Shown piece after piece: positions 8,309 to 62,536 of a stretch of 64,000 nucleotides of DNA; within the stretch, counting starts at the first letter, position 1, and every line of letters starts with the position of its first letter. The translations under genes and the position numbers were made by a program. The DNA comes from Hexactinellida sp. DTS-2022 (taxonomy: Eukaryota; Porifera; Hexactinellida): assembly GCA_028753945.1 (NCBI GenBank), contig JAPNXP010000005.1, positions 3,162,001 to 3,226,000 of the forward strand, in the 5' to 3' direction. A model generated the notes under the pieces. That model was not told the DNA's origin, did no database searches, and saw nothing but the letters and a program-made list of their open reading frames with translations.

Positions 8309-8346
8309 GACCTACTAAATTTGCAACATCTTATGCAAGAAAGAAA

Positions 8347-11182: not shown

Positions 11183-11379
11183 TTATGAGTATATAATAGA
11201 CTAATAGTTAGCGCAGTGCCTCTCAAAGTAAAAATGTGAAGCCCTGGTATAATGTTATCTCATAGAAAGTATCATATGTTTCTAACACAATCATACAATA
11301 GTTAATTTGTGTGTGTGATAATTTATTATTAATACAAGAGAAATTTGATTGGATGAGTATAATAGTCATATGATATAGT

Positions 11380-13126
11380 ATGAATGTCAACACAACTGAG
11401 GGGATCAAATCTAATATAACAGGCAAAAATTATTATATCTTTCACTTATCGCATTTTTTGCACAAACTTTGTCAATTTTCCGAGGATTCCATAATTTCTG
11501 TTCCTGAATTCATGGACAGCTATAATTGCTCTGATGAAATTTCCTCTTCTGATGAAAAATCCAATGATCAAAATTTACTCGCTAAAACATCGTTAGATCC
11601 CGCAATAGATTATTTGTTAACAAGATCTTATCCCTTGACTGCTGACACTAAACGAAAAAGATCAATACGGCGGCGAGCTTCTACATTGATTTTTGAAAAT
11701 GGCGACGTATACTTGCAAAAGAGAAAGAGAAGTGTAAAAGTTATATTATCAACGGAAGAACAAGTCAAGATATTAAATGCTTGTCATTCCGATCCAACTT
11801 CGGGTCATTTTGGAGTTACCAAGACAAGGAAGAGAGTATCAGAACGTTTTTACTGGAAAGGCATGATGAAACAAATAAAGGAAATGGTGAGTAGAATAAT
11901 TAATGAATCTTATATTTCTATAATATACTATACTTGTCGCCAAATAATTTGTTTAATTAATGAAGCATTTTAGGTAGACTATTGTGAAGTATGTCAGCAT
12001 ATGAATTCTAAGGTCAACACTGAACGACCACAACTTTACCCCATTCCTGTGAAATCTCCCATGTATCATGTTGGAATAGACTTCATTGGTCCGATCTCTC
12101 CTACTACTCAGAATGGAAATCGTTTCATTCTTACAATGACTGATTATTTTACGAAATATGGCTGGGGAAAAGCATTACCATCAAAGGAAGCAGTCAATGT
12201 AGTCTCTTCCTTAAAAGAGGTAAGCGAATATATATATTTCGTAAACATTACATATATTCTTTAAAATTATATAGGTGTTCCTAATGTTTGGCATCCCAGC
12301 CGTTATAACAACAGATCAAGGGAAAGAATTTCATAACAGATTGAATAAATATTTCGAAATTGAGATGGGTATTGATCATAGATTTACAACAGCATACCAT
12401 CCACAGGCGAATGGCTTAGATGAAAGGTTTAATCAAACCCTCAAGTACTCAATCGCGAAATTTTCTCATGAAGAAAAGTGTAATTGGGATGTGAAGATTT
12501 TGGATATTATTTACGCATATAACACATCAATCCAGGACTCAACTAATTACTCGCCATTCCAAGCAATGTTCGGTCGAATTGCAAGGCTCCCAATAGATAT
12601 TAACACTGATAACCATGAACCTGAGGAAAAGTTAAACAATTTTCAGGCTGCTGATAATCCAGTGATTGAACAGCTCGAAAATCAGCGTGGTATGATGGAA
12701 GTAGACATCAAGAAAAACATTGAAAAAGCTCAAGACAAACAATCTAAACTGTATAATAGAAAACATGGTGGTGGATTATCATTTCTCATCGGATCATCAG
12801 TCCTCAAAAAGAATTTTATCAGAAAAAAACGACGTGGAGGGTGTTTAGAATATCGTTGGGAAGGCCAATTTCAAATTATAAAATCACATGGGAAGGGACT
12901 ATATAAATTACAAGATGGCAGCAAGGTAAGAATATCACAGATTCGTCCTAGTGAATATTAATACAAATGCTAATTTGCTTATATATATGACACATGTTAA
13001 TAGTAGAATTTATAGATAATCGAGGGAATAAATGGAGCACACCTCAAAATATGGCATACTACAGACAAAACTGATCTCCAATCTACCGCAGATAAAGAAA
13101 AAATCGCTCCATTATTCTCAAAAAAG
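11380..13126 (+). CDS. Spliced Gypsy/Ginger-type integrase gene (GIN-like)
   Basis: Four exons join in phase 0: 11380-11886, 11974-12219, 12275-12925 and 13016-13126, with GT..AG introns of 87, 55 and 90 bp. The product has YLLTRSYPL (YPYY-like), an HHCC zinc module (CHSDPTSGH with YCEVCQ, created by splicing), and an rve core with Asp in HVGIDFIGP, Asp in ITTDQGKEF and Glu in QANGLDERFNQ, the last two separated by exactly 35 residues (D35E). The GPY/F module RWEGQFQII is followed, after splicing exon 4, by INGAHLKIW, as in Gypsy integrases. There is no reverse transcriptase or LTR nearby, and introns are unusual in retroelements, so a Ginger DNA transposon or a domesticated integrase (GIN1-like) fits best. 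The 3' end is uncertain: a further acceptor near 13186 could add more. The P element inserted about 190 bp upstream of the ATG. Confidence 0.8.
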
Positions 13127-28576: not shown

Positions 28577-29705
28577 TAATCTAGAGGAGAAAAGTGATGA
28601 ACAACCAATGATATAGATTTGCTTTACTATTGGAATAAGGTTACTTACATTAAAAATATATAATGCAAACGTGAATTCCAAGCCATCTGATCCAAGCATT
28701 TCACTGAGATGACCGAATTTATTAAATTTACTGTTAAATCTAATGTGAATATACATTACTAATCCATAATTAGTCACTACTCAAATGTTATAAAACTTTG
28801 GCTGAAATTAAGGGCAGAACGATGATACAGTTGTTGGAAATCCAAAAATTATTGTCCAAATGTCAAACGACCAAATTGAGACCCCAACAAGTGAAACATG
28901 TGGATGAATGGGCGTGGATTTAATGATATGTGAATATATTGCTAATGACACTAGATTTACTCACTTTTTGCGATGCGTTTTGAAATTCTAAAGGAACAAC
29001 CGATGAAATGCAATGTAATAATGCGTGCGTGTAACTGCATTTGAATTTACATACTTACATATAATTAGGGTCGACTATCTTTAAGCCTGAAAGAAAATTG
29101 CTCGGATATAGCGAGCTGAAATAAACGTTCGAATAATCGGGGGTCTGCTTCATTGGTTTTGAATTTACTTACATTTTATTAACATCCTGGCCAGCCTAGA
29201 AAAAATGTGATGAAACACAATTCGATTTCATTTACATTTTCAAACTAGATTTACTTACTTTTCTGTTCTAGTTTTCTGTAGAAGAGTAGGAAGAGTAAAT
29301 CAACATCGAGTATAGGAAGTACTGTAGTATTACAGGGTTTAATCGGATTAAGTTACGGAGCTATAGTATTTGTCAATCCGGTTCTACAAATTACAGGTTC
29401 GGTGCTAAAGACTTATGCGCTACCAATTTAAACCCTGATATAATACATTTCCCAGTAGAGGAAATTGTATAATTTGTACTATCGATTACCTTCGAATTTG
29501 CTTGAATCCTAGAAAATTAAAATGGCATAAATTGCAAAATAGGTCGGTTTTTAACATCTAGTATTGAAAACAGAATTAATTAGTTCACTAAATGCTTTAA
29601 TACAGTAATACGATAGTTTTATCGACAAAATCAATAGTTCTCATACTAATTTTTTTAATATCTCGAACTCGGTCAGTAATTGGAATCAGGTTGAATATAT
29701 AAATA

Positions 29706-29861
29706 TGAGAATACTTATCCACCGATCATCGGCGTTTGTATTAAAAAACTTCGCTACTTTGTACCGATGACGTTTTTTTTTATAAACATAAAAAAACCAT
29801 CGGTACAAAGTAGCGAAGTTTTTTAATACAAACGCCGATGATCGGTGGATAAGTATTCTCA
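29706..29861. mobile_element. Perfect-hairpin MITE (TA-flanked)
   Basis: TGAGAATACTTATCCACCGA through GGTACAAAG.. is an arm of about 65 bp repeated as an almost exact inverse after a loop of about 28 bp, and TA lies at each edge. Sister units lack it. Arm identity implies a very recent insertion. Non-coding. Confidence 0.85.
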
Positions 29862-30268
29862 TAAAATATTAAGGTAATACTAGATAAACTGAAGCTCAAT
29901 CATGGGCTAATGTGATAATGCAATAAAGTTAATCCATAGTAATCCATTTCACAACGACTAGCTAGCTGAACAATAATTCGGTGTCTAGACTTTCTACAAA
30001 GCTATGTATAGAGGAGCTGTCTATACTATGAAGAGGAAGAAATGGCGAATCTAATCTGGTATAAGCATATCGCAGGGTGTAAAACAGGGAGTGCATTGAA
30101 ATTTGCATAAATATATGTGAAAGGTTCACCCTCTACTCAATAAAACCTCTACAAATGTTTAGTTGAATTACCATGGGTCAAGTTAATGGTTAGAGCTAGA
30201 TAATATAATTCATACAGAAACTCGAACTTAACATTAAATATAGGATATTGAATTAGAGCAAGCATTAC

Positions 30269-30783
30269 CTTAACCTAACGAATAGCTGACCAGATGATTT
30301 AGGATTAGGAGCAGTTAGTACGATCTGTAGTTGGTCGAGGGCAACGTCTACTCTGTTAACAGCAAGCTCAAGCAGGAGAGAGGTCTTCCCTTTGCTAGGC
30401 CCAGCCTGTATAAACAGGTTAATGTTGGCTTTAAGCGTAGCAGCAGTCAACTGCTTGAGGGCTGGAGATGGGGACTTCGAGGGTTTATCGTCACTAAGCG
30501 ACATTAGTGACATCAAATCGTCATTTACCACAAGGGCTTGTATGACTTTGGGTGTAATCTGTGTGTGGACAGGAGCACTCTCGTTTAAATACTTCAATTT
30601 ATCACTTAAGTTCTCAATCAGCGTCTCGTGACAGTACGCTACATCTGTGTACTTGTTTGGAGTCAACTTACGGATCATTACATAGGGCTGCGTATACCAG
30701 GTGGGTTGTGGGTTGACGCACTCGAACAACAATAAGTATTGAAGCTCTGGTGGTAAAAGAGAGTGAGTAGAGGCGTGTGGCTC
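30269..30783 (-). CDS. P-loop (NACHT-like) exon fused ahead of copy 1 micro-exons
   Basis: Open from 30783 down to a GTAATG donor at 30268. It contains SLLPPELQYLLLFECVNP, a middle segment (ALKQLTAATLKANINLFIQ), AGPSKGKTS matching the P-loop pattern [AG]x4GK[ST], then LLLELAVNR and QIVLTAPNPK. In NACHT NTPases a VTSRP-like block follows Walker B, but here it lies only about 19 residues after the P-loop, so the Walker B segment is missing. The homologue at 40021-40680 extends into a NACHT-like EVRAFGYTEGSFDK. The donor phase (TTA AG|) matches exon 2 of copy 1. No start codon or acceptor is certain. NACHT kinship is inference. Confidence 0.4.
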
Positions 30784-31389
30784 TCATGCACGTCAACGAA
30801 TATAACGAAGGTGGTGCATTTATAGAAATGCTCCTTATTCGTGTTAATGACTCAAATATGTTTGGGGTCCCCTACAAATAGCGAGGAGGACCCCAATTGT
30901 TGTTGTTGTTGTTGTTGTAGTTGTTGTTTCCATAGCTAACAAATCAAAAAATTGGACGTAGTTATAGTAGAGTGCTCAGCATTAGTACTGAATAGCTGGT
31001 TAGTAATTTAGAAATTATTTAAACAAGTCGCTAGATCGAGCGGCCTCCGCTTGTAATTAAAACAAATTCCTTCAACGAAGTGAATCATACATCGGTGAAC
31101 TTAGTTGGATTTTACTGTAGCGAATAAATCATCGGATTAAACTACATATATGGGTGTGCATAGAAAGACATTTGTTATAATGGAAGGTAATTAAAACGAA
31201 TCAGTATCCTGGAAGATGGAATAGAAATATCACAAAGTCACAGTTCAACCCGTGAACCAATAAACAAATTTTTCTGCTCATGGATACTCAACTTTGAGTT
31301 TGGACCGCTTGTTAGAGACAACTGTTGAGGTATTGGTGATAATATTGATCCACTAACGAGTCTAACCACATTTGAATAAAAACCTCAGG

Positions 31390-40020: not shown

Positions 40021-40680
40021 TCAGAGGGATCTGTCATTTACTACTTGTCTAGAATGAGATAGAGTTTGCCAAAGCAGTTCGCAATTATTGTCGGGACTTG
40101 TTTTTGTATAAAAACTCCCGTATAACTCATCACACCAAAGTAATCTGCAGTATTTCAGGAGTGAAGAGTTCTTCGATATGAGAGAGAATAAATGGCTATT
40201 TTCTATATCTAATATATGTACTTTTTGTTCAACTAAATATAAGTTTAACTTGTCAAAGCTACCTTCAGTATACCCAAATGCTCTCACCTCAGTTATTTCC
40301 TTAGCATAAACGTGTTCTTTCAACCTGAGGAATGTTCCAGATGTTTAGGATTTGGAGCGGTGAGAACGATTTGCATTTGATCGAGCGAAAATTCAACCTT
40401 GCTAACAGCCAGCTCAAGCAGCAGAGACGTCTTATCCTTGCTAGGCCCAGCCTGATAAACAGGTTTATATTAGCTTTCAGAGTGGCCTCAGTTAACTGCT
40501 TGAGGGCTGGAGACAGGGATTTTGAGTGTTTTGCGCCATTAACAGTTTGAGGTAAATCGCCATTTACGACAGGGTCGGTTTGTACTACTTTTGGCGGTAT
40601 TTGAGTAACCTTAGGGACATCAACATTATCGTATAAATACGTCAGCATATCCTGTAGGTTCTCTATCAGTGATCGTGTCC
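40021..40680 (-). pseudogene. NACHT/NLR-like fragment, frame-broken
   Basis: A homologue of the 30269-30783 exon with AGPSKDKTS (P-loop Gly replaced by Asp) and QIVLTAPNPK. It then continues, after frameshifts near 40310 and 40455, into EHVYAKEITEVRAFGYTEGS, FDKLNLYL and FSLISKNSSLLKYCRLLWC. The order P-loop, VTSRP-like block, EVxGFTEE-like block, then LxxNPxLLxLC-like block is that of NACHT NTPases of NOD-like receptors, with the Walker B stretch absent. Not coding as it stands. Confidence 0.4.
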
Positions 40681-40719
40681 GTAAGCTAAATCTGTGAATT
40701 GTGTTGGCAACCACGTAAT

Positions 40720-40815
40720 ATATACGAGCCCTTGGGTCTCGGTCGCTTTGCGGCAGATTGGTGCTACGCACCTCAAGTTTACGGCCGCTATGCGGCCTTA
40801 CTCCTCACTAGTTGA
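40720..40815 (-). repeat. Snap-back dispersed repeat, 3' end
   Basis: ACGAGCCCTTGGGTCTCGGT, CGCTTTGCGGC and GGCCGCTATGCGGCC are the inverse of the 19148-19583 3' end. It interrupts the upstream part of the NACHT-like fragment. Confidence 0.5.
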
Positions 40816-41450: not shown

Positions 41451-42872
41451 TTAAAAAAATTGATTGTTCATTATCTAGAGGAGAAAAGGTGATGAACTAC
41501 CAATGATATAGATTGCTTTACTATTGGAATAAGGTTACTTACATTAAAAATAATCTCTAAAAAGTCTATGGAAAAATATATAATAAAAATGTAATCGTGA
41601 ATTCCAAGCCAGCTGATCCAAGCATTTCACTGAGATGACCGAATTTACTAAATTTACTATTAAATCTAATTACTAATCCATAAACGTCAAACGACCAAAT
41701 TGAGACCCCAACAAGTGAAACATGTGGATGAATGGGCGTGGATTTAATTAAAAGTAAATATATTGCTAATGACACTAAATTTACTCACTTTTTGCGATGC
41801 GTTTTGAAATTCTAAAGGAAAACAACCGATGAAATGCAATGTAATAATGTGTGCGTGTAATTACATTATAATTGACAAACATACTTATATTGGGGGTCGA
41901 CTATCTTTAAGTCTAGAGGGGAATAACACGATGAACTACAATATGATATCGAGTGCAGCTATACAGCAAACTCCCGGTTATCCGAAAGTTCGTTAAATGA
42001 AGCGGTATGATTTGGGTAGGGTACATTTGAAGAAATTGATTGATTATAAGCTACAAACATTGTGTAGTGCATACTAGTAGTAGAATGTGTTCAGAAAACG
42101 TAGAACGAATATCAATGACAGAAAATAAATAACGAGTTCAAATGGATAGTTCGAATAATCGGGAGTCTGCTTTACTGGTTTTGAATGTACTTACATTTTA
42201 TTAACATCCTGGCAAGCCTAGAAAAAATGTGATGAAACACAATTTGATTTAATTGTCCATTTCTATTCAAACTAGATTTACTTACTTTTCTGTTCTAGTT
42301 TTCTGTAGGAGAGTAGGAAGAGTAAATCAACATCGAGTATAGGAAGTACTGTAGTATTACAGGGTTTAATCGGATTAAGTTACGGAGCTATAGTATTTGT
42401 CAATCCGGTTCTACAAATTACAGGTTCGGTGCTAAAGACTTACGCGCTACCAATTTAAACCCTGATATAATACATTTCCCAGTAGAGGAAATTGTATAAT
42501 TTGTACTATCAATTACCTTTGTTGCACGAGTCCTAGAAAATTAAAATGGCATAAATTGCAACATAGGAATATCAATAAATTTAACACATAGTATGATAGT
42601 AATGAGAACAGCAATGAATTAGCTGATTGAATGCTGTAATACAGCTAGCTATACGATAGTTTTTATCGATAAAATTTACTTTTAAAAAGATGATTAGTAG
42701 AACTACCATGGTGCTAGATAATCTAATTCATATAGATACACGAGCTAAACATTAAATATAGGATATTGAATTAGAGTAACCATTACCAGAATTCCCGAAA
42801 AATGTCAGGGATCCCCCTGCACAGAACGAGGGGGACCCCAGGTGATGTTGTTGTTGTTGTTGTTGTTTCCAT
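41451..42872 (-). CDS. Micro-exon poly-Thr gene, copy 3 (intact, 79 aa)
   Basis: Eight exons, all GT..AG: 42787-42872 (86 nt), 42517-42532 (16), 42286-42302 (17), 42195-42217 (23), 41885-41912 (28), 41789-41811 (23), 41543-41565 (23) and 41451-41474 (24, with TAA). Total 240 nt, open throughout. Product: Met-Glu-Thr7, then SPGVPLVLCRGIPDIFREFW, TRATKKTRTEK, LARMLIKYLKIVDPQYK, ISKRIAKNFLEIIFN, IMNNQFF. The C-terminal half is basic and predicted helical with a hydrophobic end; no signal peptide is seen. Copies 1, 4 and 5 preserve the same splice sites, phases and frame, although no exon of 16-28 nt could be predicted from one copy alone. TATA-like sequence (ACTATAACTACG) lies about 30 bp above the ATG. 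No family recognised. The main doubt is lack of transcript evidence. Confidence 0.65.
41967..42172. repeat. MITE-like sequence inside intron 4 of copy 3
   Basis: CAGCAAACTCCCGGTTATCC at the left and CGAATAATCGGGAGTCTGCT at the right are inverse. Sister copies carry decayed versions in the same intron (47095-47320, 53720-53940), so the insertion predates the duplication. Confidence 0.5.
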
Positions 42873-44216
42873 AGCTAACAAATCAAAAAATTGGACGTAG
42901 TTATAGTAGAGTGCTCAGCATTAGTACTGAATAGCTGGTTAGTAATTTAGAAATTATTTAAACAAGTCGCTAGATCGAGCGGCCTCCGCTTGTAATTAAA
43001 ACAAATTCCTTCAACGAAGTGAATCATACATCGGTGAACTTAGTTGGATTTTACTGTAGCGAATAAATCATCGGATTAAACTACATATATGGGTGTGCAT
43101 AGAAAGACATTTGTTATAATGGAAGGTAATTAAAACGAATCAGTATCCTGGAAGATGGAATAGAAATATCACAAAGTCACAGTTCAACCCGTGAACCAAT
43201 AAACAAATTTTTCTGCTCATGGATACTCAACTTTGAGTTTGGACCGCTTGTTAGAGACAACTGTTGAGGTATTGGTAATAATATTGATCCACTAACGAGT
43301 CTAACCACATTTGAATAAAAACCTCAGGCTTGGACGCGAATTAAAAAATACAAATTTGTAACTGAGGGGAGAATGGGAATTCAGGTTAGAATAATTTGCC
43401 CAATGTGTACAAACAGAACTAATTATAGTAACTAGGTGAGCATGAATAAATTGGAAATGCACAATCCAAACTATTGTGTTATTGAACATGAAATACGACA
43501 ATATAAAGCCATGGTTACATCTACAAAACTAATTCAAACAATAACGAAAGAATCAAAACAAAATTCCTTACTAGAACTTCAATAGCAAGTAATTAGCAGT
43601 TGACAGTAATAGAATAGAAGGTTATATTACTTATATAACAGATGCAATAATATGTAAGCAGTTCTGGAGAATAGGGAATGTTAGAAAAATCTGCTTGAGG
43701 GAATAGTATGGTAAGACTGATCACGAGAAAAAAAAGAACACTGTTAACAACGTCTAAAAAAGAGTAAAACTAATAGAATAGAGAAGATAAGGTAGCATAG
43801 GGGTCATAAAGAAATGTCTGATTGTTAAGAAAATGTTATAACGTCTAATTATGCAAATGATGGAAATCACTCATTCATTCAACAGGAGAATAAAGTTATT
43901 GAAAAGCTTCTCCTAATTTTTGACTTCAAAACTGAGGGTTATTTAGGTGTTACCTTTCGTAACTACACAGTTAACTAAAACTGGTTTGTTGTCTAGACAT
44001 CAATACCAGTTTGAAACATGGGAATAGTTAAAGCAATAAACGTGTAGACTAGTACACTAAATAGTATAATCAGTTTGAGACATAAAGAAACATGAGCTAG
44101 CCAGCTAGGAGGTGTGAGGTTCGAAATATTGCAAGTATAAATCAATCAGTCAATAAATAAATAATAAACCAATAAATATTCCAATAAATAAATAAATAAG
44201 GAACAGATAAACTTAC

Positions 44217-44387
44217 ATGACGTATAGGTGTGGAGTGGTATAAATAATACAGAAGTTGTCCAGTAGATGGAGAGGATATAACTTGATAGTCTTTGTCTGA
44301 GCAAACGGAGCTTCTCGAGAGACGACACCGGTCGATAGATTCCATGTTATGAACCAAGCGGGATTCAGGTACGTGAAGGTAATTCTC
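44217..44387 (-). CDS. 171-nt open exon, copy b
   Basis: Same acceptor, donor, 57-codon length and open frame as 39126-39296, with ENYLHVPESRLVHNMES and SSVCSDKDYQVISSPS. Substitutions are few. Lies between two micro-exon gene copies. Confidence 0.5.
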
Positions 44388-44596
44388 CTATCGCATAGAG
44401 AGGAATTAATGAGCGATTTGATTTAGAATACAGTCGAAATCGAGTGTTTTTGACAATGGCTTTTCAATCCCAACAGGTTTGATTGCAAGTCAAATTCTTG
44501 TGTTGTTATAATCGTAACTCTTTTATATCATATTTGGATACTTAACTTCCGCCGCTTAATTGTCAAATAGAGGGTTCTTCTTTTTTGTTCCACTAT

Positions 44597-44597
44597 C

Positions 44598-44637
<40 letters not shown>
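44597..44637. repeat. (TTA)n microsatellite
   Basis: Pure TAT/TTA tract of about 40 bp. Confidence 0.9.
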
Positions 44638-44640
<3 letters not shown>

Positions 44641-44968
44641 CAATTCAAAAAAAAGAGAGCAAACAATTCACAAAAACATCACATAAATTCAGGGAGATCA
44701 GCTGGGGTATGTAGGTTGTACACCAAATACTGAAAATACTATATATCGACAAGTAAATAATTAGAATTAGTGCAACAATCACTAAGAACCTGTTTTACTT
44801 TTATCCGGTAGCCTCTCCCCCTACCATGTGTTTAGTTATAACACCTACTGATTCAATATTTCCTTTGAAACTTGTGTCCTCTGCACAACTTGTGTAGCAT
44901 CCTAACGCCTACAGAAAAGAGCTGAGAAGCACGGTTGATTGGAATACTTGTTACGAAACGGAACTTAC

Positions 44969-45030
44969 TCGAGTCAAACTTGAGAGCCATTGGTCATCTC
45001 TGGACACGACACAGAATGATCGAATGCTTC
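44969..45030 (-). CDS. Candidate 62-nt cassette exon
   Basis: Acceptor CCATAG, donor GTAAGT. Phase-2 start, then SIRSFCVVSRDDQWLSSLTR. The copy at 51724-51785 is near identical but has TAG in place of TGG. Confidence 0.35.
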
Positions 45031-45417
45031 CTATGGAATGTCCTATAGAGCAGCCAGATAAGGGAGTTACGGGAGTATCAGGTAGAGGAGGAACATACGT
45101 ACCTGATCAAATACATCGATAAACGTATTTACACTTTTACTTTTTGACTGAGGAATCTTGCATGTTTCTTTAATTTACATATCATATTAGCGGAATATGT
45201 CGAGCTGTTTTAATGTATTTGTGATATTTCTCCACCCATTATATTTCAGACTAGTTCTTGAATCAATCGAATCAACGAGTAGATTTTATATATACAAATT
45301 GTGTTGCCATAGTAGCTAGTCAAGTTGTTAGTTTTAACTAGTAGAGTGTGTTTCATGGACTATGCAAAATCACCATATAAAACTCAAAATTAAGAGCCAC
45401 TATTCGATAACGAGACA

Positions 45418-46220
45418 GGGTCATAGGGGGGCAGAGGGGGGGGGGCGAGGGGCAGAGACAAAGTTTATAAATAAATTTTCAATATATATTAATCTAGAAT
45501 ATCTCAAAGTCATTAAAAAATGTATAAACAATGATATATAGTGAATGCGTGATAGGTATAATCATACCAAAGCTATATACAGTGGAACTTCCACAAACGG
45601 GGCCTGTGGAAACGGAGATCCTGTGAAAATTGGGTTAAAAAAATGCAGCAAATTCCTAGTCCCACATAAATGAATCTCCACAAACGGGGAATCTGCAGAA
45701 ATGGGGAATCGGGGTGGCTAAGACCTTGCATCCCTAGCACCCCGTTTCTGCAGGTTCTACTATAACTGCATACCTGCCAACCAACCGTACAGGATTCCCT
45801 GTACAGTATAGGGATTTTAATTTACCAAATATTAATGAAATAATGCCAAAAAAGTCTACAGTGGTGATAGTATATTCTGCCATGCATTCATTGACCACAT
45901 AAAAGCACAACTGGTTTATATATTCATTAAAACGTACAGTAATTCCCTGTTCAGTATATATGTCAATGTTTTCTTCCTTTACAAAGCAATAATTTACTAT
46001 GTGAGTGTATAATAATTCTTTGGACGAGCGAGAAAATTTTTCACGGGATTTTGGCCAATGTACAGGGGAAAATTGGAGCCCTGTACAGGGATATTACTTA
46101 AATAGGTTGGCAGGAATGTAACTGGTGACTTATGCAAAACTGGACTTCAGGTCTGGGGGGCAGCTCATTAATTAGGGAGGGGGGGGTACGTGCCCTCCTC
46201 TGCACCCTCCCTTGGATCCT
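45418..46220. mobile_element. Truncated copy of the 52198-52859 hAT element
   Basis: Shares the G-tract start and the CTTGGATCC..CACTGAATTTACC end with 52198-52859, but the left end is deleted together with about 60 bp of flank. It contains the mariner-type MITE 45580-45762 and a CATACCTGCCAACC element (about 45768-46121). The insertion predates the unit duplication. Confidence 0.6.
45580..45762. mobile_element. Mariner-type MITE (CAGTGGAACTTCCACAAACG)
   Basis: CAGTGGAACTTCCACAAACG at the left, CCCGTTTCTGCAGGTTCTAC at the right, TA flanks. Orthologous insertion at 52388-52570. Confidence 0.65.
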
Positions 46221-46444
46221 TCACTGAATTTACCACAGTGCGGTTGCGCTAGTGAGAGGGGAATGCTTACTCCGCCTTTAGAGATAAACCAATAAAAGTA
46301 AAGCACAAAGTGAGGGGATTAAATAAAAATTATAATAAATTATTTCAAAAAAATTGCTTGTTCATTATCTAGAGGAGAAAGGTGATGAACTACCAATGCT
46401 ATAGATTGCTTTGCTATTGAGATAAGGTATACTTACATTAAAAA

Positions 46445-48545
46445 TTACTCTAAAAAGTCTAGAGGAAAAATATAAATATAATATAATGCAAACGTGAATT
46501 CCAAGCCAGCTGATCCAGACATTTCACTGATATGACCGAATTTCCCGAAACTAGTTAAAACTAATGTCAATATACTTTACTAATCCTTACTTTGTCACTA
46601 CTAGTGTCAAATGTTACAAACGTTAAGCTAAAATTGATGGAGGCACGATGATACAGTTGTTTGGGAACCATAAATTATTGTCCAAACGTCAAACGTCAAA
46701 CGATCAAATTGACACCCCAATAAGTGAACAACGGGATTTAATGATACGTATGTGAATACATTGCTAATATTATTAGATTTTACTTACTTTTTGTTATCCG
46801 TTTTGAAATTCTAAAGGAAAACAATAGATGAAATGCAAAGTGATAATGCGTGCGAGTTATTGGCATTTGAATTACAGTCGAAACGGGCTATTTTTTTTGT
46901 TTTTTTTAAGAAAATCCAATAGTTAGAATAAACGGATTGAAAATAAAACAAAATTGGAATTTATCATAAATTTAGAATAAATAGTTATTAAGAAAAAACC
47001 GGTTTAGACTGTACTTACTTTAATTTGGGGTCGAGTATTTTCCAATCTAGAGGGGAATAACACGATGAACTACAATATGATATCGAGTGCAGCAATACAG
47101 CAGAATCCCGATCATCCAAAAGTTTGGATAAAATGAGGCGGCATGAAGTGGGTGGGTTATATTTGAATAAATTAATTGACTATAAACTAATACATTGTGT
47201 AGTGCAGACTAGTAGTAGAATGTGTTCAGAATAACGTAGAACGATTTATTTATGATATAAAATTGCTCGGATACACCGAGTTGAAATAAATCGATCGGAT
47301 AATCGGGAGTCTGATTGGTTTTGAATTACTTACATTTTAAGATCAGCCTCGCCAATCTAGAAGAAATGTGAAAAACACAATTTGATTTCATTTTCCATTT
47401 CTATTCAAATTAGATTTTACTTACTTTTCTGTTCGAGATCTCTGTAGAAATAGTAGGAATAATAAATCTTCATCGCGTAGAGGAAGTAAAGTAATATTAC
47501 AGCAGGGATTTTTTTAAGGTTGAGACCTTGATGTAACTCAGCGCGGCCTTGGTGTAACTCAACACCGCAGCGGCCGCGGCCGACGCGAATCGTGGTGTAA
47601 CTCCAAAAAATTTTGGTGTAAAGTTTACACCAAGATCGGCCTTAAAAAAAACCCTGTATTACAGGGTTTAATCGGGTTGCAGTTACGGGGCTAAAGTTTT
47701 GTCATTTCAGTTTTACAATTACAGGCGCTAAAGACTTTGACGCTAACAATTTAAATCCTGAGATAATACATTTCCCAGTATAGGAAATTTGTCTAATTTG
47801 TACTATCAATTACCTGGGCGCTACCGGGTTGACTCCTAGAAAATTAAAATGGCATAAATTGCAAAATAGGAATGTCAAAAATATAACATTTAGTTTTGAG
47901 AACAACAGCAATTATTACGTTTATTGAGTGCTGTAATACAGCAATACGATATGCGATAGTTTCATCGACAAAATGCGAGCCATTTACTAGCATAATTTAA
48001 TAGTTAAAACTTAAAAGTAAATAAAAGTAATTATCTCGAGCTCGGTCGGTAACCCGAATCAGGTTGAATATTGAAAACAAAACGAAAAGTATAATGCTGT
48101 GTAGATACACCGAAGCTAAATCAAACGTGTTCATGTTGATAATGCAATAAAACTAATCCATAGTAATTCATTTCACAATGACTAGCTAGCTGAAAAATAT
48201 TTAGGTTTCCAGACTTTCCACATAGCTAGGTATAAAGGAGCTATGGAGAGGAAGAAATTGTGACTCTAATCTGCAAATTAGCATAATCCCAGGTTGTAAA
48301 AACAGGGAGTGCATTGAAATTTGTTAAACATGTGGGAAGGTTTTACCTCTACTCAATTAAACCATTTAAAGATGTTTAGTTGAATTACCATGGGTCAAGT
48401 TAAAGGCTAGAGCTAGATAATGTAACTCATACAGATACTCGAGCTAAACATTAAATATACGATAGTGAATTTAAATAAAAACTACCTTAAGAATTCAAAC
48501 ATGTTTGGGGTCCACCTACAAAAAATGAGGGGGACCCCGGACGTT

Positions 48546-48579
<34 letters not shown>

Positions 48580-48583
48580 CCAT
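46445..48583 (-). CDS. Micro-exon poly-Thr gene, copy 4 (early stop, 74 aa)
   Basis: Exons 48486-48583 (98 nt), 47814-47835 (22), 47425-47441 (17), 47334-47356 (23), 47019-47046 (28), 46788-46810 (23) and exon 7 at 46437-46458 (22 nt, one shorter than in sisters), where the frame meets TAA at 46445-46447. Product: Met-Glu-Thr10, ITSGVPLIFCRWTPNMFEFL, RSQPGSAQRSRTEK, LARLILKYWKILDPKLK, ISKRITKNFLE. It lacks the last dozen residues (IIFNIMNNQFF) of copies 3 and 5, so it may be a truncated but usable form or a young pseudogene. A 154-bp hAT MITE sits in intron 2. Confidence 0.55.
47503..47656. mobile_element. hAT-type MITE with empty-site control
   Basis: The ends CAGGGATTTTTTTAAGG and CCTTAAAAAAAACCCTG are inverse, and TATTACAG flanks both sides (47495-47502, 47657-47664). 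The sister unit at 54118 has the uninterrupted TATTACAGGG site, confirming insertion after duplication. Confidence 0.9.
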
Positions 48584-49144
48584 TGCTAATAAATCAAAAA
48601 ATAGGACGTAGTTATAGTATAGTGCTCAGCAATAATATTATATAGCGGGTTAGTAATTTAGAATTATTTAAACAAGCCGCTTGTTCGCGCTCACATCATA
48701 CACTCGAGTTTCTCAGCAGCGGCCTTCGTTTGTATTTAAAGCAAATTCCTTTACCTGAGTTGTATTTAGATAAATTTTAAATATAAACTTAAAATTTAAA
48801 GCTTTTATTGTTACCAAAAAATGAGTCAATCTAATCCTTGGATTATTGATAATATCAATTGTGATTTGAAATATCATTATAATAACTTGAATAATATCAG
48901 GGAACTTAGTTGGATTTTACTGTAGCGAAATAAGTATTAGATTAAACTATTTACATAAATAGAAACTGATTTGTTATAATGGAGGTAGTCAAAACGAATC
49001 AGTATGCTGAAATATGGAATATAAATATCACTAAGGTACAGTCCAACCCGTGAACCAATATGCAAATTTTTCCGCTCATGGATGCTTAACTCTGTGTTTG
49101 GACCGCATATTAGGAACCTCTGTTAAGATATTGGTGATACAAAT

Positions 49145-49540
49145 ATTCATTATCAAATAAGATAAAAACGGTGTCAGAAATGCATGGCTATTCATTGGAT
49201 GCATGAATTTTCTCCCACCCATTAATAGATTACTGTCTCAGATAGGCATTCCATATTATTGCACACTTGACAACTGATAAAGACACTAATTTCAATTTAT
49301 ACTAACTAAAACATTGTAATTTAATTGGTTTATGGTTTTATAACTTTTGGGAAGGGTAGATGCGAATAATTTTCTTAGAAATATAATTCAACTAGGTCCT
49401 AGATAAGGTATTCCCTACACTTCTGCCAAATTTCAAGTTTACAGATTTTACCAGTACCTCAAATAATTCTGGACCAACAGACAAAAAAATAATTGTGATT
49501 TAATATAAAATATAATTAAAAAGTTAAAATAAATCCACTA
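49145..49540. repeat. Unit-specific insertion related to 1240-1440
   Basis: Present here and at 55610-56000, absent from the unit at 43270. Shares GCATTCCATATTATTGCACA, CTTGACAACTGATAAAG and TTTAATTGGTTTATGG with the 1.2-1.4 kb region. A dispersed repeat of unknown class. Confidence 0.55.
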
Positions 49541-50532
49541 ACGAGTCAAACCACATTCATCGAATGAATAGTTAAAACCACAGGATTGGACGAGAGTTAA
49601 ATAAAACTAATTTGTGTAGGTAACGGAGGAGAGAATTGGAATTCAGGTTAGAGAAATTTGCCCAATATGTACAAAGAGAACTAATTATAGTACCCAGGTG
49701 ACGCCTGAATAAATTCTCACAGATCACAGAAAGTTGATTGGAAATGCACATTTCAAACTATTGAGAATTGAAGTTATTGAACATAGTAATAAGACACATA
49801 ACATTATAAGGTCCATGGTATAGTAACATTATATAACATAATTCAAACAATAACGAAACAATCAAAACATAATTCCTTACTAGAACTTCAATTCCAAGTG
49901 ATTAACAGTTGACAGTAATAGAATAGAAGGTTATATTACTTATATAATAGATGCAATAATATGTAAGCAGTTCTGGAGAATAGCAAATGTTTGAAAAATC
50001 TGCTTCAGGGAATAGTATGGTAAGACTGATCAGGAGAAAAAAAAGAACACTGTTAACAACGTCTAAAAAAGAGTAAAACTAATAGAATATAAATACAAAT
50101 GTAAGCATAGGGGTCATAAAGAAATGTCTGATTGTTAAGAAAATGTTATAACGTCTAAATATTCAAATGATATAAATCACCCATTGATTTAACAGGAGAA
50201 TAAAGTTATTGAAAAGCTTCCCCAAATTTTGGACTTGGAAAAACTGAGGGTTATTTAGGTGTTACCTTTCGTAACTACACTATTAATTAAAACTGGTTTG
50301 TTGTCTAGACATCAATACCATTTTGAAACATGGGAATAGTTAACGCAATAAACGTGTAGACTAGTACACTAAATAGTATAATCAGTTTGAGACATAAAGA
50401 AACATGAGCTAGCCAGCTAGGAGGTGTGAGGTTCGAAATATTGCAAGTATAAATCAATCCGTCAATAAATAAATAATAAACAAATAAATAAACCAATAAA
50501 TAAATAAATAAATAAGGAACAGATAAACTTAC

Positions 50533-50703
50533 ATGACGTATAGGTGTGGAGTGGTATAAATAATACAGAAGTTGTCCAGTAGATGGAGAGGATATAACTT
50601 GATAGTCTTTGTCTGAGCAAACGGAGCTTCTCGAGAGACGATACGGATCGATAGATTCCATGTTATGAACCAAGCGGGATTCAGGTACGCGAAGGTAATT
50701 CTC
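50533..50703 (-). CDS. 171-nt open exon, copy c
   Basis: 57 codons, same splice sites, VHNMESIDPYRLSRSSVCSD, ending STPIRH. The open frame continues beyond the donor because the intron start is AT-rich, which is not evidence for coding there. Confidence 0.5.
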
Positions 50704-50746
50704 CTATCGCATAGAGAGGAATTAATGAGCGATTTGATTTAGAATA

Positions 50747-51151
50747 CCTTATTATAGGAAATTAACGCGCATTAAATCAACGCGAATTTCTCCAAATCAA
50801 GTTAATTTCCTTCGCGATAATTTAATGGAGCGTTAATTTCCTGCAAATTTATACTATTTAGCAAAATGTATACAATGGATGGACAAACTTCCGAGCTACA
50901 TATTTTTCAGATGTGCAATTAGGTTGAGAGGATATACCATGTCTATCAAGTAGATTGGAAGCCTATTTGGGCACAATAAATAGTATTTAATCAGGAATTT
51001 AATAATCCTGAATTTTTTTCTAAAATTTATTCTCGTTAATTTCATGTATTTGAAAATGTTCAGCTCCAATTCGCGTAATTTCATGGAGCGATAATTTCCT
51101 TCGCGTTAATTTCAAGGCGGGTTAATTTGAAAATAATTTCCTATAATAAGG
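50747..51151. mobile_element. TA-flanked MITE CCTTATTATAGGAAATTA
   Basis: CCTTATTATAGGAAATTAAC and TAATTTGAAAATAATTTCCT..ATAATAAGG are inverse ends with TA on both sides. Sister units at 44430 and 57205 read straight through (TTTAGAATACAGTCG), so the insertion is unit-specific. The interior has several TTAATTTC.. GCG motifs. Confidence 0.8.
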
Positions 51152-51723
51152 TAGTCGAAATCGAGTGTTTTTGACAACGGCCTTTTAGTCTCACCGGTTT
51201 TATTGGAAGTCAAATTCTTGTGTTGTTATATTCGTAATTCAATAAAATAATATTGGATACTTTTCGTCTTCCGGATATTTGTCAAATGGAGGTTTTTTGC
51301 CTATCAGGGGATGTAAATAATTGCTAATCAGTTCAAATAAATATCAAACAGATAGAAGGAAACAAACTAAAAGAGTTACCTACCGGTCTTACTCCCGTAG
51401 AGAGGTTAAAGCGAGCAAACATCTCACAAAAACATCACATAGATTCAGTGAGATCAGCTGGGGTATGTAGGTTGTACACCAAATACTGAAATACTATATA
51501 TCGACAAGTAAATAATTAGAATTAGTGCAACAATCACTAAGAACCTATTTTACTTTTATCCGGTAGCCTCTCCCCCTACCATGTGTTTAGTTATAACACC
51601 TACTGATTCAATCTTTCCTTTGAAACTCGTGAGCGCTGCACAACCTGTGTAGCATCCTAACTCCTACGTTAAAGAGCTGAGAAGCACGGTTGAATGGAAT
51701 ACCAGTTACGAAACGGAACTTAC

Positions 51724-51785
51724 TCGAGTCAAACTTGAGAGCTATTGGTCATCTCCGGACACGACACTGAATGATCGAATGCTTC
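51724..51785 (-). pseudogene. Cassette exon with in-frame stop
   Basis: Counterpart of 44969-45030: SIRSFSVVSGDDQ then TAG, then LSSLTR, same splice sites. Either noncoding or a dead copy. Confidence 0.3.
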
Positions 51786-52197
51786 CTATGGAATGTCCTA
51801 TAGAGCAGCCAGATAAGGGAGAAACGGGAGTATCAGGTAGAGGAGGAACATACGTACCTGATCAAATACATCGATAACCGTCTTTACACTTTTACTCTTT
51901 GACTGAGGAATCTTGCATGTTTCTTTAATTTACATATCATATTAGCGGAATATGTCGAGCTGTTTTAATGTATTTGTGATATTTCTCCACCCATTATATT
52001 TCAGACTAGTTCTTGAATCAATCGAATCAACGAGTAGATTTTATATATACAAATTGTGTTGCCATAGTAGCTAGTCAAGTTGTTAGTTTTAACTAGTAGA
52101 GTGTGTTTCATGGACTATGCAAAATCACCATATAAAACTCAAAATTAAGAGCCACTATTCGATAACGAGACAATTTTTTCAGGTAAACCAATTTACT

Positions 52198-52859
52198 CAG
52201 AGGCAGATCCAGTCCCAAACCCGAGGGGGCATAGGGGGGCAGAGGGGGGGGGCCGAGAGGCAGAGACAAAGTTCATAACTAAATTTTCAACATATATTAA
52301 TCTAGAATATCTCAAAGTCATATAAAAATGTATATACAATGATATATAGTGAATGCGTGATAGGTATAATCATACCAAAGCTATATACAGTGGAACTTCC
52401 ACAAACGGGGCCTGTGGAAACGGAGATCCTGTGAAAATTGGGTAAAAGAAATGCAGCAAATTCCTAGTCCCACATAAATGAACCTCCACAAATGGGGAAT
52501 CTGCAGAAATGGGGAATCGGGGTGGCTAAGACCTAGCGTCCCTGACACCCCGTTTCTGCAGGTTCTACTGTAACTGCATACCTGCCAACCAACCGTACAG
52601 GGATTCCCTGTACAGTATATAAGTCAATGTTTTCTTCCTTTACAAAGCAATAATTTTACTATGTGAGTGTATAGTAATTCTTTGGACGAGCGAGCGCAAC
52701 AAGCGAGAAAATTTTTTAGGAGGTGTATATGGATTTGGCCAACGTACAGGTGAAAATTGGTACCCTGTACAGGGTTATTACTTAAATAGGTTGGCAGGTA
52801 TGTAACTGGTGACTTATGCAAAACTGGACTTCAGGTACCCTCCCTTGGATCCGCCACTG
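52198..52859. mobile_element. hAT-type element with nested MITEs
   Basis: CAGAGGCAGATCCAG and CTTGGATCCGCCACTG ends, flanked by AATTTACT (52190-52197) and AATTTACC (52860-52867). Contains the mariner-type MITE 52388-52570 and a CATACCTGCCAACC element (about 52577-52800) flanked by TGTAACTG. Confidence 0.75.
52388..52570. mobile_element. Mariner-type MITE, orthologue of 45580-45762
   Basis: CAGTGGAACTTCCACAAACG..GCAGGTTCTACTG with TA flanks. Confidence 0.7.
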
Positions 52860-52978
52860 AATTTACCACAGTGCGGTTGCGCTAGTGAGAGGGGAAATGA
52901 CTACTCCGCCTTTAGAGATAAACCAATAAAAGAAAAGCACAAAGTGGGGGGATCAAATAAAAATTATAATAAAATATT

Positions 52979-55040
52979 TTAAAAAAATTGATTGTTCATT
53001 ATCTAGAGGAGAAAAGGTGATGAACTACCAATGCTATAGATTGCTTTGCTATTGACATAAGGTATACTTACATTAAAAATTATCTCGAAAGAGTCTAGAG
53101 GAAAAATATAAATATAATATAATGCAAACGTGAATTCCAAGCCAGCTGATCCAGACATTTCTCTGATATGACCGAATTTCCAGAAACTTGTTAAAACTAA
53201 TGTCAATATACTTTACTAATCCTTTCTTTGTTACTACTGGTGTCAAATGTTACAAACCTTAAGCTAAAATTGATGGAGGCACGATGATACAGTTGTTTGG
53301 GAACCAAAAATTATAGTCAAACGTCAAACGTCAAACGATCAAATTGAGACCCCAATAAGAAAACAACGGGATTTAATGATATGTGATACATTGCTAATAA
53401 TATTAGATTTTACTTACTTTTTGTTATCCGTTTTGAAATTCTAAAGGAAAACAATAAATGAAATGCAAAGTGATAATGCGTGCGAGTTATTGGCATTTGA
53501 ATTACAGTCGAAACGGGCTATTTTTTTGTTTTTTTTAAGAAAATCCAATAGTTAGAATAAACGGATTGAAAATAAAACAAAATTGGAATTTATTATAAAT
53601 TTAGAATAAATAGTTATTTAGAAAAAACCGGTTTAGACTGTACTTACTTTAATTTGGGGTCGAGTATTTTCCAATCTAGAGGGGAATAACACGATGAACT
53701 ACAATATGATATCGAGTGCAGCAATACAGCAGAATCCCGATCATCCAAAAGTTTGGATAAAATGAGGCGGCATGAAGTGGGTGGGTTATATTTGAATAAA
53801 TTAATTGACTATAAACTAATACATTGTGTAGTGCAGACTAGTAGTAGAATGTGTTCAGAATAACGTAGAACGATTTATTTATGATATAAAATATACCGAG
53901 TTGAAATAAATCGATCGCATAATCGGGAGTCTGTTGTATTGGTTTTGAATTACTTACATTTCAATAGCAGCCTCGCCATTCTAGAAGAAATGTGATAAAA
54001 CACAATTTGATTTCATTTTCCATTTCTATTCTAATTAGATTTTACTTACTTTTCTGTTCGAGATCTCTGTAGAAATAGTAGGAATAGTAAATCAACATCG
54101 CGTAGAGGAAGTAAAGTAATATTACAGGGTTTAATTGGGTTGCAGTCACGGGGCTAAAGTTTTGTCATTTCAGTTTTGCAATTACAGGCGCTAAAGACTT
54201 AGGCGCTAACAATTTAAATCCTGAGATAATACATTTCCCAGTATAGCAAATTTGTCTAATTTGTACTATCAATTACCTGGGCGCTACCGGGTTGACTCCT
54301 AGAAAATTAAATGGCATAAATTGCGAAATAGGAATGTCAAAAATATAACATTTAGTTTTGAGAACAACAGCAATGATTACGTTTATTGAGTGCTGTAATA
54401 CAGCAATACGATATGCGATAGTTTCATCGACATAATGCTAGCCATTTACTAGCATAATTCAATAGTTAAAACTTAAAAGTAAATAAAAGTAATTATCTCG
54501 AGCTCGGTCGGTAACCCGAATCAGGTTGAATATTGAAAACAAAACGAAAAGTATAATGCTGTGTAGATACACCGAAGCTCAATCAAACGTGTTCATGTTG
54601 ATAATGCAATAAAACTAATCCATAGTAATTCATTTCACAATGACTAGCTAGCTGAAAAATATTTAGGTTTCCAGACTTTCCACATAGCTAGGTATAAAGG
54701 AGCTATGGAGAGGAAGAAATTGTGACTCTAATCTGCAAATTAGCATAATCCCAGGTTGTAAAAACAGGGAGTGCATTGAAATTTGTATAAATATGTGAAA
54801 GGTTTTACCTCTCTACTCAATTAAACTTTTAAAGATGTTTAGTTGAATTACCATGGGTCAAGTTAAAGGCTAGAGCTAGATAATGTAACTCATACAGATA
54901 CTCGAGCTAAACAATAAATATATGATAGTGAATTAGACTAACCATTACCTGAGATTGTCAAACATGTTGGGGGTCCCCCTACAAAAAATGAGGGGGACCC
55001 CTGATGTTATTGTTGTTGTTGTTGTTGTTGTTGTTTCCAT
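52979..55040 (-). CDS. Micro-exon poly-Thr gene, copy 5 (intact, 83 aa)
   Basis: Eight exons: 54949-55040 (92 nt), 54277-54298 (22), 54050-54066 (17), 53958-53980 (23), 53648-53675 (28), 53418-53440 (23), 53072-53094 (23) and 52979-53002 (24, TAA). 252 nt, open throughout. Product: Met-Glu-Thr8, ITSGVPLIFCRGTPNMFDNL, RSQPGSAQRSRTEK, MARLLLKYWKILDPKLK, ISKRITKNSFEIIFN, IMNNQFF. TATATAAT lies about 90 bp upstream of the ATG. Compared with copy 3, exon 2 is 6 nt longer (two codons) and the Thr tract has one extra codon; every other small exon has the same length. Substitutions are mostly conservative. Function unknown; a small basic intracellular or secreted peptide are both possible. Confidence 0.65.
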
Positions 55041-56990: not shown

Positions 56991-57161
56991 ATGACGTATA
57001 GGTGTGGAGTGGTATAAATAATACAGAAGTTGTCCAGTAGATGGAGAGGATATAACTTGATAGTCTTTGTCTGAGCAAACGGAGCTTCTCGAGAGACGAT
57101 ACGGATCGATAGATTCCATGTTATGAACCAAGCGGGATTCAGGTACGTGAAGGTAATTCTC
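56991..57161 (-). CDS. 171-nt open exon, copy d
   Basis: 57 codons, nearly identical to 50533-50703, with GTAAGT donor at 56990-56985 and acceptor at 57162-57168. Downstream candidates in the same unit include a 14- to 21-nt exon ending at a GTAACA donor near 56724. Two 11-nt exons lie above at 57390-57400 and 57513-57523. Confidence 0.5.
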
Positions 57162-60721: not shown

Positions 60722-62375
60722 ATGAAGTGTTTGTTGTCTGTGATAACTAGAAGAAAAAAAGTGATGAATTGCAATTTGATTTTTATGTCTTTCTACATTA
60801 AACTACCCGAGGTAATGGGAACTTAATAACTTTCCGTTCTAAGCGGAGTAAATCAATTGAAAGTTTAAGGTGTAAAACCCTTTAATCAGAGGCGGATCTA
60901 AGGAAGGGGGCCTGGGCCCCTTCGAGAACTAGTAAATTCAATGCACTCGTGGCAATATAGCCAATTACTGGATCTAATGTTCATAGGATTAAGTTACTGA
61001 CAGTAACTGAACTGCCATAAACATATAATTTTTAAAATTTAGACATAAAATATAAGCGTTCAGTCAACAAGAAGTTTAACTACATTCAAGTTTACCATAG
61101 AATTATATGTAAGTGCTTATTTCGTTACATACTTCTTGGTATCAAAAGATCCCGTGAAATATTGTATATAGAATCGAGCGGAATATAATATCGAAACTAG
61201 ATTTACTTACAATAATAGAAAGAAGTCTGTGATAACTAGAAGAAAAAAAGTGATGAATTGCAATTTGATTTTTTGTCTTTCTACATTAAACTACCCGAGG
61301 TAATGGGAACTTAATAACTTTCCGTTCTAAGCGGAGTAAATCAATTGAAGGTTTAAGGTGAAAAACCCTTTAATCAGAGGCGGATCTAAGGAAGGGGGCC
61401 TAGGCCCCTTCGAGAACTAGTAAACTCAATGCACTCGTGGCAATATAGCCAATTACTGGATCTAATGTTCATAGGATTAAGTTACTGACAGTAACTGAAC
61501 TGCCATAAACATATAATTTTTAAAATTTAGACAAAAAATATAAGCGTTCAGTCAGCAATAATTTTAACTACATTCAAGTTTACCATATAATTATATGTAA
61601 GTGCTTATTTCGTTACATACTTCTTGGTATCAAAAAGATCCCGTGAAATATTGTATATAGAATCGAGCGGAATATAATATCGAAACTAGATTTACTTACA
61701 ATATAAAAAGAAGTCTGTGATAACTAGAAGAAAAAAAGTGATGAATTGCAATTTGATTTTTATGTCTTTCTACATTAAACTACCCGAGGTAATGGGAACT
61801 TAATAACTTTTCGTTCCAAGCGGATAAATCAATTGAAAGTTTAAGGTGTAAAACCCTTTAATCAGAGGCGGATCTTAGGAAGGGGGCCTAGGCCCCTTCG
61901 AGAACTAGTAAACTCAATGCACTCGTGGCAATATAGCCAATTACTGGATCTAATGTTCATAGGACTAAGTTACTGACAGTAACTGAACTGCCATAAACAT
62001 ATAATTTTTAAAATTTAGACAAAAAATATAAGCGTTCAGTCAGCAATAATTTTAACTACATTCAAGTTTACCATATAATTATATGTAAGTGCTTATTTCG
62101 TTACATACTTCTTGGTATCAAAAAGATCCCGTGAAATATTGTATATAGAATCGAGCGGAATATAATATCGAAACTAGATTTACTTACAATATAAAAAGAA
62201 GTCTGTGATAACTAGAAGAAAAAAAGTGATGAATTGCAATTTGATTTTTATGTCTTTCTACATTAAACTACCCGAGGTAATGGGAACTTAATAACTTTTC
62301 GTTCCAAGCGGATAAATCAATTGAAAGTTTAAGGTGTAAAACCCTTTAATCAGAGGCGGATCTTAGGAAGGGGGC
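60722..62375 (-). repeat. Four tandem units of about 488 bp, each with a micro-exon-like cassette
   Basis: Units begin near 60722, 61211, 61700 and 62188. Each has, on the minus strand, a CTTCTAG acceptor, 24-25 nt (25, 25, 24, 24) starting TTATCACAGAC, and a GTAAGT donor, followed in the next unit by a CAGAGGCGGATCTAAGGAAG hAT-like end. The context resembles exon 4 of the poly-Thr genes, suggesting local amplification of an exon with flanks. No continuous reading frame could be assigned. Confidence 0.7.
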
Positions 62376-62536
62376 CAGCTTCTTCGAGAATTAGCAATTT
62401 ACTTGCTGAGAAATATAATTAAGACATAAATAAAACTTTCAGGCAGTAGGAAGTTAAACTTCGTATCTTTCATATAAGTATTCCATAAGAATTATAAGTA
62501 TTTATTATATACTTGTTACAAAGGGAGTTTATGGCA

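Follow-up and report, generated by a model that had tools for sequence, protein, structure and literature searches.

We analysed a window of 64,000 nucleotides from Hexactinellida sp. DTS-2022 (C14:3162001-3226000, C14 being one of the 18 contigs in the 112.4 Mb of genome that were searched). The window holds a tandem family of small genes on the minus strand that are built mostly of micro-exons. We think it likely that these are eight-exon protein-coding genes for a short, basic protein that starts with poly-threonine, with a conserved splice layout and with units that arose by copying. We will first describe the copies in the window and then the evidence for the reading frame, the spread of the family, and the likeness among its short introns.

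Two copies, B and D, are intact, and each has eight exons flanked by YAG acceptors and GT donors. Copy D (55040-52979) has exons of 92, 22, 17, 23, 28, 23, 23 and 24 nt, which join into 83 codons. Exon 1 (54949-55040) contains the ATG, the poly-threonine stretch and a stable hairpin. It is followed by exon 2 (54277-54298), exon 3 (54050-54066), exon 4 (53958-53980), exon 5 (53648-53675), exon 6 (53418-53440), exon 7 (53072-53094) and exon 8 (52979-53002), which ends in TAA. Copy B (42872-41451) has exons of 86, 16, 17, 23, 28, 23, 23 and 24 nt, which give 79 codons; they lie at 42872-42787, 42532-42517, 42302-42286, 42217-42195, 41912-41885, 41811-41789, 41565-41543 and 41474-41451. The donors of exons 3-7 are all GTAAGT in D and are GTAAGT, GTATGT or GTGAGT in B. 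The first exon makes up more than one third of the coding sequence in both copies, and the seven introns interrupt the frame after codon positions 2, 0, 2, 1, 2, 1 and 0. In B and D, no middle exon (2-7) has a length divisible by three, so losing any single one shifts the frame. A working product would thus need every micro-exon to be spliced in, and cells would make the protein only where they splice micro-exons accurately.

The other copies in the window are incomplete. Copy C (46345-48583; exons of 98, 22, 17, 23, 28, 23, 22 and 24 nt) is open as far as exon 7 (46458-46437), where the loss of 1 nt leads to an early stop. In copy A (28579-30933), the first exon is interrupted and its frame is lost, and the 3' end has decayed; exons 2-6 are kept (29508-29490, 29275-29259, 29195-29173, 29086-29059 and 28987-28965), and exon 2 is 19 nt long. 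An earlier sequence-only reading of this DNA had reported micro-exon segments with YAG acceptors and GTAAGT-like donors, which joined to products of 79 and 83 amino acids in two copies and ran to a slightly early stop in a third. All of its segments lie where it placed them: the two complete copies are B and D, the third is C, and a 19-nt second exon that it listed belongs to A. A more distant copy, from a second subfamily, extends from 37709 to 33326, with exon 1 at 37709-37627, exon 5 at 35972-35945, exon 6 at 35884-35862, exon 7 at 33439-33417 and exon 8 at 33348-33326; exons 2-4 were not found. Between its exons 6 and 7 are open frames for a FLYWCH domain (above the cut-off) and a MULE domain (27.1 bits, with a cut-off of 27.6). 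Self-comparison of the window shows that the copies lie in tandem units about 6.4 kb apart (for example, 47.7-50.7 kb matches 54.1-57.2 kb at 98%).

The sequence-only reading had also argued that a frame that continues across such exons is very unlikely to arise by chance. Three lines of evidence bear this out: a scan of the window, a copy on another contig, and simulations of neutral change. In the scan, we searched mechanically for a pyrimidine tract, YAG, 10-60 nt, and GTAAGT, using the nearest acceptor. This gave 27 micro-exon candidates on the minus strand and none on the plus strand, as compared to a mean of 3.9 per strand in Markov sequences (range 1-8, 20 sequences). The 27 candidates are not independent, because tandem copies of the same exons are counted.

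The copy on contig C2 (L033; hereafter the C2 copy) was reached by DNA similarity searches, which are independent of the reading frame. Its exon 1 has 92 nt and its exon 2 has 19 nt, the splice dinucleotides are kept, and its frame is open for 80 codons. In 4.2 kb of this locus, the splice scan yields 11 candidates, which include exons 3-7 with lengths of 17-23-28-23-23 nt, in the same order as in D (where the scan yields nine candidates, including the same five). The donor of its exon 2 is GTAATT, which lies outside the scan pattern, and this exon was placed by eye. Across exons 2-7, just 59 of 133 aligned bases are identical between the C2 copy and D, and the proteins are 43% identical (E = 1e-8 by BLASTP; a single comparison that includes the poly-threonine). 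Yet exons 3-7 have not changed in length and exon 2 has changed by three. More broadly, second exons of 16 nt (B), 19 nt (A and the C2 copy) and 22 nt (D) differ by threes only, and these steps carry weight; length steps in exon 1 are uninformative because they fall inside an (ACA)n repeat. The tandem family of small micro-exon genes that had been read from the window is thus upheld on a second contig, in splice dinucleotides, in the lengths of exons 3-7 and in frame.

We then asked how often a frame like this would stay open. If intron segments of matching lengths from the C2-contig gene are joined instead, 6.3% of 20,000 draws are open through exon 7. In the alignable intron blocks between D and the C2 copy, there are 18 frame-breaking indels in 703 aligned bases. 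At that rate, about 3.5 frame-breaking indels would be expected in exons 2-7, and none are seen (P ~ 0.03). We also placed the observed substitutions at random (5,000 runs in each of six settings). A stop codon arose in 87% of runs from D to B, in 90% from B to D, in 84% from D to B without the poly-threonine, and in 99% in three comparisons with the C2 copy. Furthermore, fewer amino acids have changed than the neutral mean (29 vs. 34.7 for D-B and 46 vs. 58.9 for D-C2). The joint probability of no stop and of no more changes than are seen is 0.0044 for D-B (0.0062 without the poly-threonine), and for D-C2 this outcome occurred in 0 of 5,000 runs.

Substitution rates within codons tell a similar story. 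By the method of Nei and Gojobori (NG86), dN and dS are 0.22 and 0.45 for D-B, 0.26 and 0.45 for L009-B (L009 is a copy on contig C11), 0.63 and 1.07 for D-C2, 0.66 and 1.10 for L009-C2, 0.60 and 0.66 for B-C2, and 0.021 and 0.019 for D-L009. The ratio dN/dS, which the sequence-only reading had named as a check, is below 1 in five of the six pairs: 0.49 for D-B, 0.57 for L009-B, 0.58 for D-C2, 0.60 for L009-C2 and 0.92 for B-C2. The sixth value, 1.09, is for the near-identical pair D-L009, in which five codons differ. Among the 80 codons compared between D and B, differences fall at codon positions 1, 2 and 3 in 21, 9 and 21 cases. The ratios below 1 in the diverged pairs and the simulations together show that the protein is under constraint.

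Constraint on the protein does not mean that the exons change slowly. Between D and B, 29 of 107 bases (27%) differ in exons 2-6, as compared to 183 of 1,147 (16%) in the introns (p = 0.006), and in exons 2-8, 32 of 154 differ, as compared to 53 of 471 in the 40-nt flanks (p = 0.004). L009 and B give the same picture against introns (p = 0.002 for exons 2-6 and p = 0.02 for exons 2-8), as do C and B (p = 0.007 for exons 2-6). These tests share sequences and are therefore not independent. In the BLAST blocks between D and the C2 copy, 126 of 182 exon bases are identical (exons 1 and 8 included), vs. 532 of 703 intron bases; outside the blocks, exon 5 (11 of 28 identical) and exon 6 (6 of 23) are more diverged still. 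Both between B and D and between D and the C2 copy, then, exon lengths and splice signals are conserved, and the coding letters change no more slowly than the introns do. This is no claim of positive selection, since dN/dS stays under 1 in every pair but the near-identical one and synonymous sites (dS) have diverged more than introns.

Several observations weigh against conserved protein-coding genes or complicate this picture. If exons 2-8 are compared to all introns, the excess of exon change is not significant for either D-B or C-B (both p = 0.13), and such an excess is absent from exons 2-6 in the close pairs (p = 0.58 for D-C and p = 0.42 for L009-C). For D-B, dS (0.45) is greater than intron divergence (0.16), so the faster exons do not simply reflect positive selection. 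In aligning D with the C2 copy, BLAST opens two 1-nt gaps in exon 1, which compensate each other, and a single one in exon 8. An acceptor-like TTAG stands before exon 1, and the 5' end of the gene may thus lie farther upstream. Finally, the whole frame is kept at just 5 of the 22 examined places with at least two recognisable exons, and most places are damaged. (These 22 are fetched places from among the matches listed, some of them read in part.)

The micro-exons might instead be spliced into a transcript that is non-coding or decaying, with an open frame that has no function. The many broken places and the fast change of exons 2-6 between D and B are what this would predict. But full frames persist in five copies from two subfamilies: B, D, L009 (81 codons), the C2 copy, and L034/L035 on contig C11 (85 codons), which is nearly identical to the C2 copy (99.7% over 2,004 bases) except that exon 1 lies about 8.5 kb upstream. 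Neutral substitution would have introduced a stop in 84-99% of cases and would have changed more amino acids than are seen, and the steps of three in exon 2 also speak against it. We therefore consider a non-functional frame unlikely. That the eight exons are spliced and translated is a strong inference from their conservation in DNA.

Copies or fragments of the family are found on contigs C1, C2, C3, C4, C6, C11 and C14, and some are 97-99.7% identical. Three loci on C6, C3 and C4 (L022, L023 and L024) are 99.4-99.6% identical to each other over 9.7-9.9 kb and hold fragments of exons 5-7. The L023 locus has a gene for a Mutator-like transposase (PF20700, E = 1e-30), and the acceptors of exons 5 and 6 have been lost there. 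It is likely that these fragments on C3, C4 and C6 were captured by a Mutator-like element, presumably in the manner of Pack-MULEs. The family has thus spread along three routes: units of about 6.4 kb were duplicated in tandem, copies were duplicated from one contig to another, and fragments are carried by a Mutator-like element. Such a distribution, with copies on six contigs besides C14, some of them nearly identical, and with fragments within a Mutator-like element at three places, might also be expected if the family were itself a mobile element whose internal sequence resembles exons by accident. We consider this very unlikely: constraint on both coding and splicing would be unexpected for an element that contains no gene, and the extent of the shared stretches varies from place to place.

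The short introns of the family (61-72 nt) resemble each other even when they come from different positions in the gene. They are intron 3 (D and the C2 copy), intron 4 (a damaged copy, L010), intron 5 (the C2 copy and L010) and intron 7 (D, the C2 copy and L010); in D, introns 3 (53981-54049) and 7 (53003-53071) are both 69 nt long. When whole introns from different positions were aligned globally, with the splice ends removed, 14 of 23 pairs were significant at p < 0.01 and 21 of 23 at p < 0.05. For the acceptor-side flanks of exons 4-8 of D and the C2 copy, 10 of 40 pairs reached p < 0.01, with z scores up to 10.2. Controls were drawn from the same window outside of the cluster (22 of 45 acceptor-like sites and 12 of 46 pseudo-introns were sampled), and at p < 0.01 they gave 0 of 231 pairs of acceptor-like flanks and 0 of 66 pairs of pseudo-introns. 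The global alignments suggested a likeness along whole introns, as if these had been duplicated entire. We rejected this reading because, when the introns were split, 7 of 23 pairs of acceptor halves were significant at p < 0.01 and none of the 23 pairs of donor halves were significant even at p < 0.05. Donor flanks alone gave 1 of 84 pairs at p < 0.01. The likeness is thus confined to the acceptor half, and the stretch that is common to introns 3, 4, 5 and 7 is the roughly 40 nt before the acceptor.

Because these 40 nt are alike and because the introns are of similar length, we lean towards an origin by copying: the serial micro-exons would have grown by tandem duplication of a unit of about 90 nt (an intron of about 65 nt and an exon of about 23 nt), and the donor half of the unit would have diverged since. 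Candidate units of this kind are 17+69, 23+69 and 28+61 nt. Our confidence is reduced by the restriction of the likeness to the acceptor half. Since the donor halves show no significant similarity, the introns might instead share an acceptor-side splicing signal that keeps the micro-exons included; exons this short would be expected to depend on strong signals at their flanks. We view a shared signal as a credible explanation, if not quite a probable one. The matches, with z scores up to 10.2, run over about 40 nt, which is long for a protein-binding signal, and the similar length of the short introns (61-72 nt) also weighs against it. Also, the window contains a tandem array with the same stretch, so micro-exon units do get duplicated. 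As the acceptor sides can still be aligned, an origin by duplication is testable.

This array (60736-62394, minus strand) has 3.4 units of 488 bp with 97% matches. Each unit contains a related acceptor-side stretch, an exon candidate and a donor, and matches the exon 7 region of the C2 copy (78% over 74 nt, E = 5e-9). The exon candidates, from acceptor to GTAAGT, are at 62211-62188, 61723-61700, 61235-61211 and 60746-60722 (24, 24, 25 and 25 nt). Elsewhere in the genome, we found only two short pieces of the array. Units that bear a micro-exon candidate can, it appears, be duplicated at this locus. Provisionally, the array may be part of a third gene, G3, with further micro-exon candidates at 63879-63854 and 63363-63343 (minus strand) and with its first two exons beyond the window, in L030. 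The frame of G3 is continuous only with one choice of donor for exon 1 (which makes exon 1 220 nt and exon 2 38 nt), and its profile did not match that of the micro-exon family significantly (E = 0.052, probability 1%). First-exon candidates rich in threonine, alanine and proline follow a TTAG acceptor in L030 (from 1993, minus strand) and in L021 (from about 7736, minus strand). The flank upstream of these candidates matches the flank of exon 1 of the C2-contig gene (z = 12), and the candidate in L030 has a perfect 17-bp inverted repeat across a possible donor.

To our knowledge, there is no settled account of how micro-exon gene families originate. We tentatively suggest that this family is built inside out: a unit of about 90 nt (acceptor, exon of about 23 nt, donor) would multiply in tandem, with flanks and exon lengths being conserved while the coding letters vary. 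If so, tandem repetition of a splice unit is an observable route to micro-exon genes, and the 488-bp array is an ongoing instance of it. As its exons do not keep to the triplet register, the family also offers a strong test of how very short exons are recognised. Other genes of this kind may be hidden, since gene-finding programs tuned to longer exons could overlook them. Three results go beyond the sequence-only reading: the copy of the second subfamily (37.7-33.3 kb), the presence of the family on further contigs, and the acceptor-side sequence shared by the introns.

The five predicted proteins have 79-85 amino acids, isoelectric points of 9.9-10.8, 12-15 lysines and arginines, and at most one cysteine. 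Residues that are invariant in all five include PL, RG.P..F, R, K, KY and D. As the sequence-only reading had found, no known domain is recognisable: none of the three proteins that we compared to Pfam-A and NCBIfam (D, B and the C2 copy) had a match above the cut-off, and PDB contained no relative (best E = 1.3 with a single sequence and 0.22 with a profile, the latter in the threonine-rich stretch). A Pfam match of B alone to nudivirus polyhedrin (E = 0.017, 15.3 bits vs. a cut-off of 27) was taken as chance. In the first 35 or so residues, the highest Kyte-Doolittle mean over 11 residues is 1.65, 1.65, 1.46, 0.53 and 0.05 in the five copies. By hydropathy, then, none of the five predicted poly-threonine starts resembles a signal peptide (this was judged without a dedicated predictor, and a further coding exon may exist upstream). 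The basic charge, the lack of a signal-peptide-like start, the fast change of the exons and the many broken copies lead us to a doubtful guess that the product is intracellular, possibly nuclear or nucleic-acid-binding, and fast-changing because of a role in genetic or host-microbe conflict.

Families of micro-exon genes have been described in parasitic flatworms and plant-feeding aphids. In aphids, bicycle proteins have a paired cysteine-tyrosine-cysteine motif, which is absent here, as no predicted protein has more than one cysteine. Bilaterians also have regulated neural micro-exons of about 3-27 nt, which likewise need special splicing signals, but these are mostly single, frame-preserving alternative exons in large genes; here, serial frame-shifting micro-exons form most of one tiny gene. 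In Schistosoma, the exons of micro-exon genes (MEGs) are mostly multiples of three and the proteins have a signal peptide (PMC10526429, PMC5825161), and MEG-26 is reported to show internal repetition of its exon-length pattern (PMC5825161). The Schistosoma MEGs resemble our family in having many very short exons, small fast-changing proteins and dispersed members. They differ in that the exons here (16/19/22, 17, 23, 28, 23 and 23 nt) are not multiples of three and in that there is no signal-peptide-like N-terminus (by hydropathy), so the distinction from flatworm genes drawn in the sequence-only reading holds. Bicycle genes have about 17 exons on average, many small internal exons that are nearly all of one phase, expression in the salivary gland, and a structure that changes more slowly than the coding sequence (PMC9168663). 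The small internal exons and the slow-changing structure are shared with our family, but our genes have eight exons with mixed phases. Among the matches listed in the open-access literature, so far as their text was available, we did not recognise a family of the same kind.

Upstream of exon 1, at a distance of 1.5-2.1 kb, lies an exon-like segment (56991-57161, minus strand) with a GTAAGT donor. It is present in four units (57161-56991, and from 50733, 44417 and 39326 downwards), which are 90-99.8% identical and have a conserved donor; it was not found near the C2 copy. We rejected it as a coding first exon: in a transcript that links it to exon 1 of D, the exon-1 frame extends upstream over 44 codons that follow a stop but offers no ATG there, and both other frames meet a stop inside exon 1. 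The segment could be a 5' non-coding exon, or exon 1 could be preceded by a trans-spliced leader. Farther upstream, there are 11-nt candidate exons (ACTGTATTCCT) at 57400-57390 and 39534-39524, with a 12-nt version in L016. The hairpin in exon 1 of D is thermodynamically strong (z = -3.8). We discarded it as a conserved RNA element because its covariation is no better than that of shuffles.

Intron 5 of D contains a repeat of about 108 bp (53536-53643, minus strand) that is 86-91% identical to at least 18 other places and is probably a small non-autonomous element. Two tandem units contain related open frames of 74 codons (51653-51874 and 44898-45119, plus strand), the first of which has no Pfam match. 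Another two related frames are at 30268-30783 and 40304-40804 (minus strand). The former has a sub-threshold match to CCDC47 (E = 1e-4) and lies between two pieces of the first-exon region of copy A, and the latter has no Pfam match. Neighbouring open frames at 6610-12958 (plus strand) contain THAP, TNP-like RNase H, OTU and integrase domains and are probably the remnants of several transposons. The THAP domain is suggestive of an animal; elsewhere in the genome, a search for the COX1 family gave no match, and the 18S gene, of which the 5' part is legible and the rest reads N, looks fast-evolving. Near the start of the window, tandem repeats at 2120-2549 (48-bp units, 99%) and 4326-5048 (27-bp units, 95%) are open in several frames on both strands.

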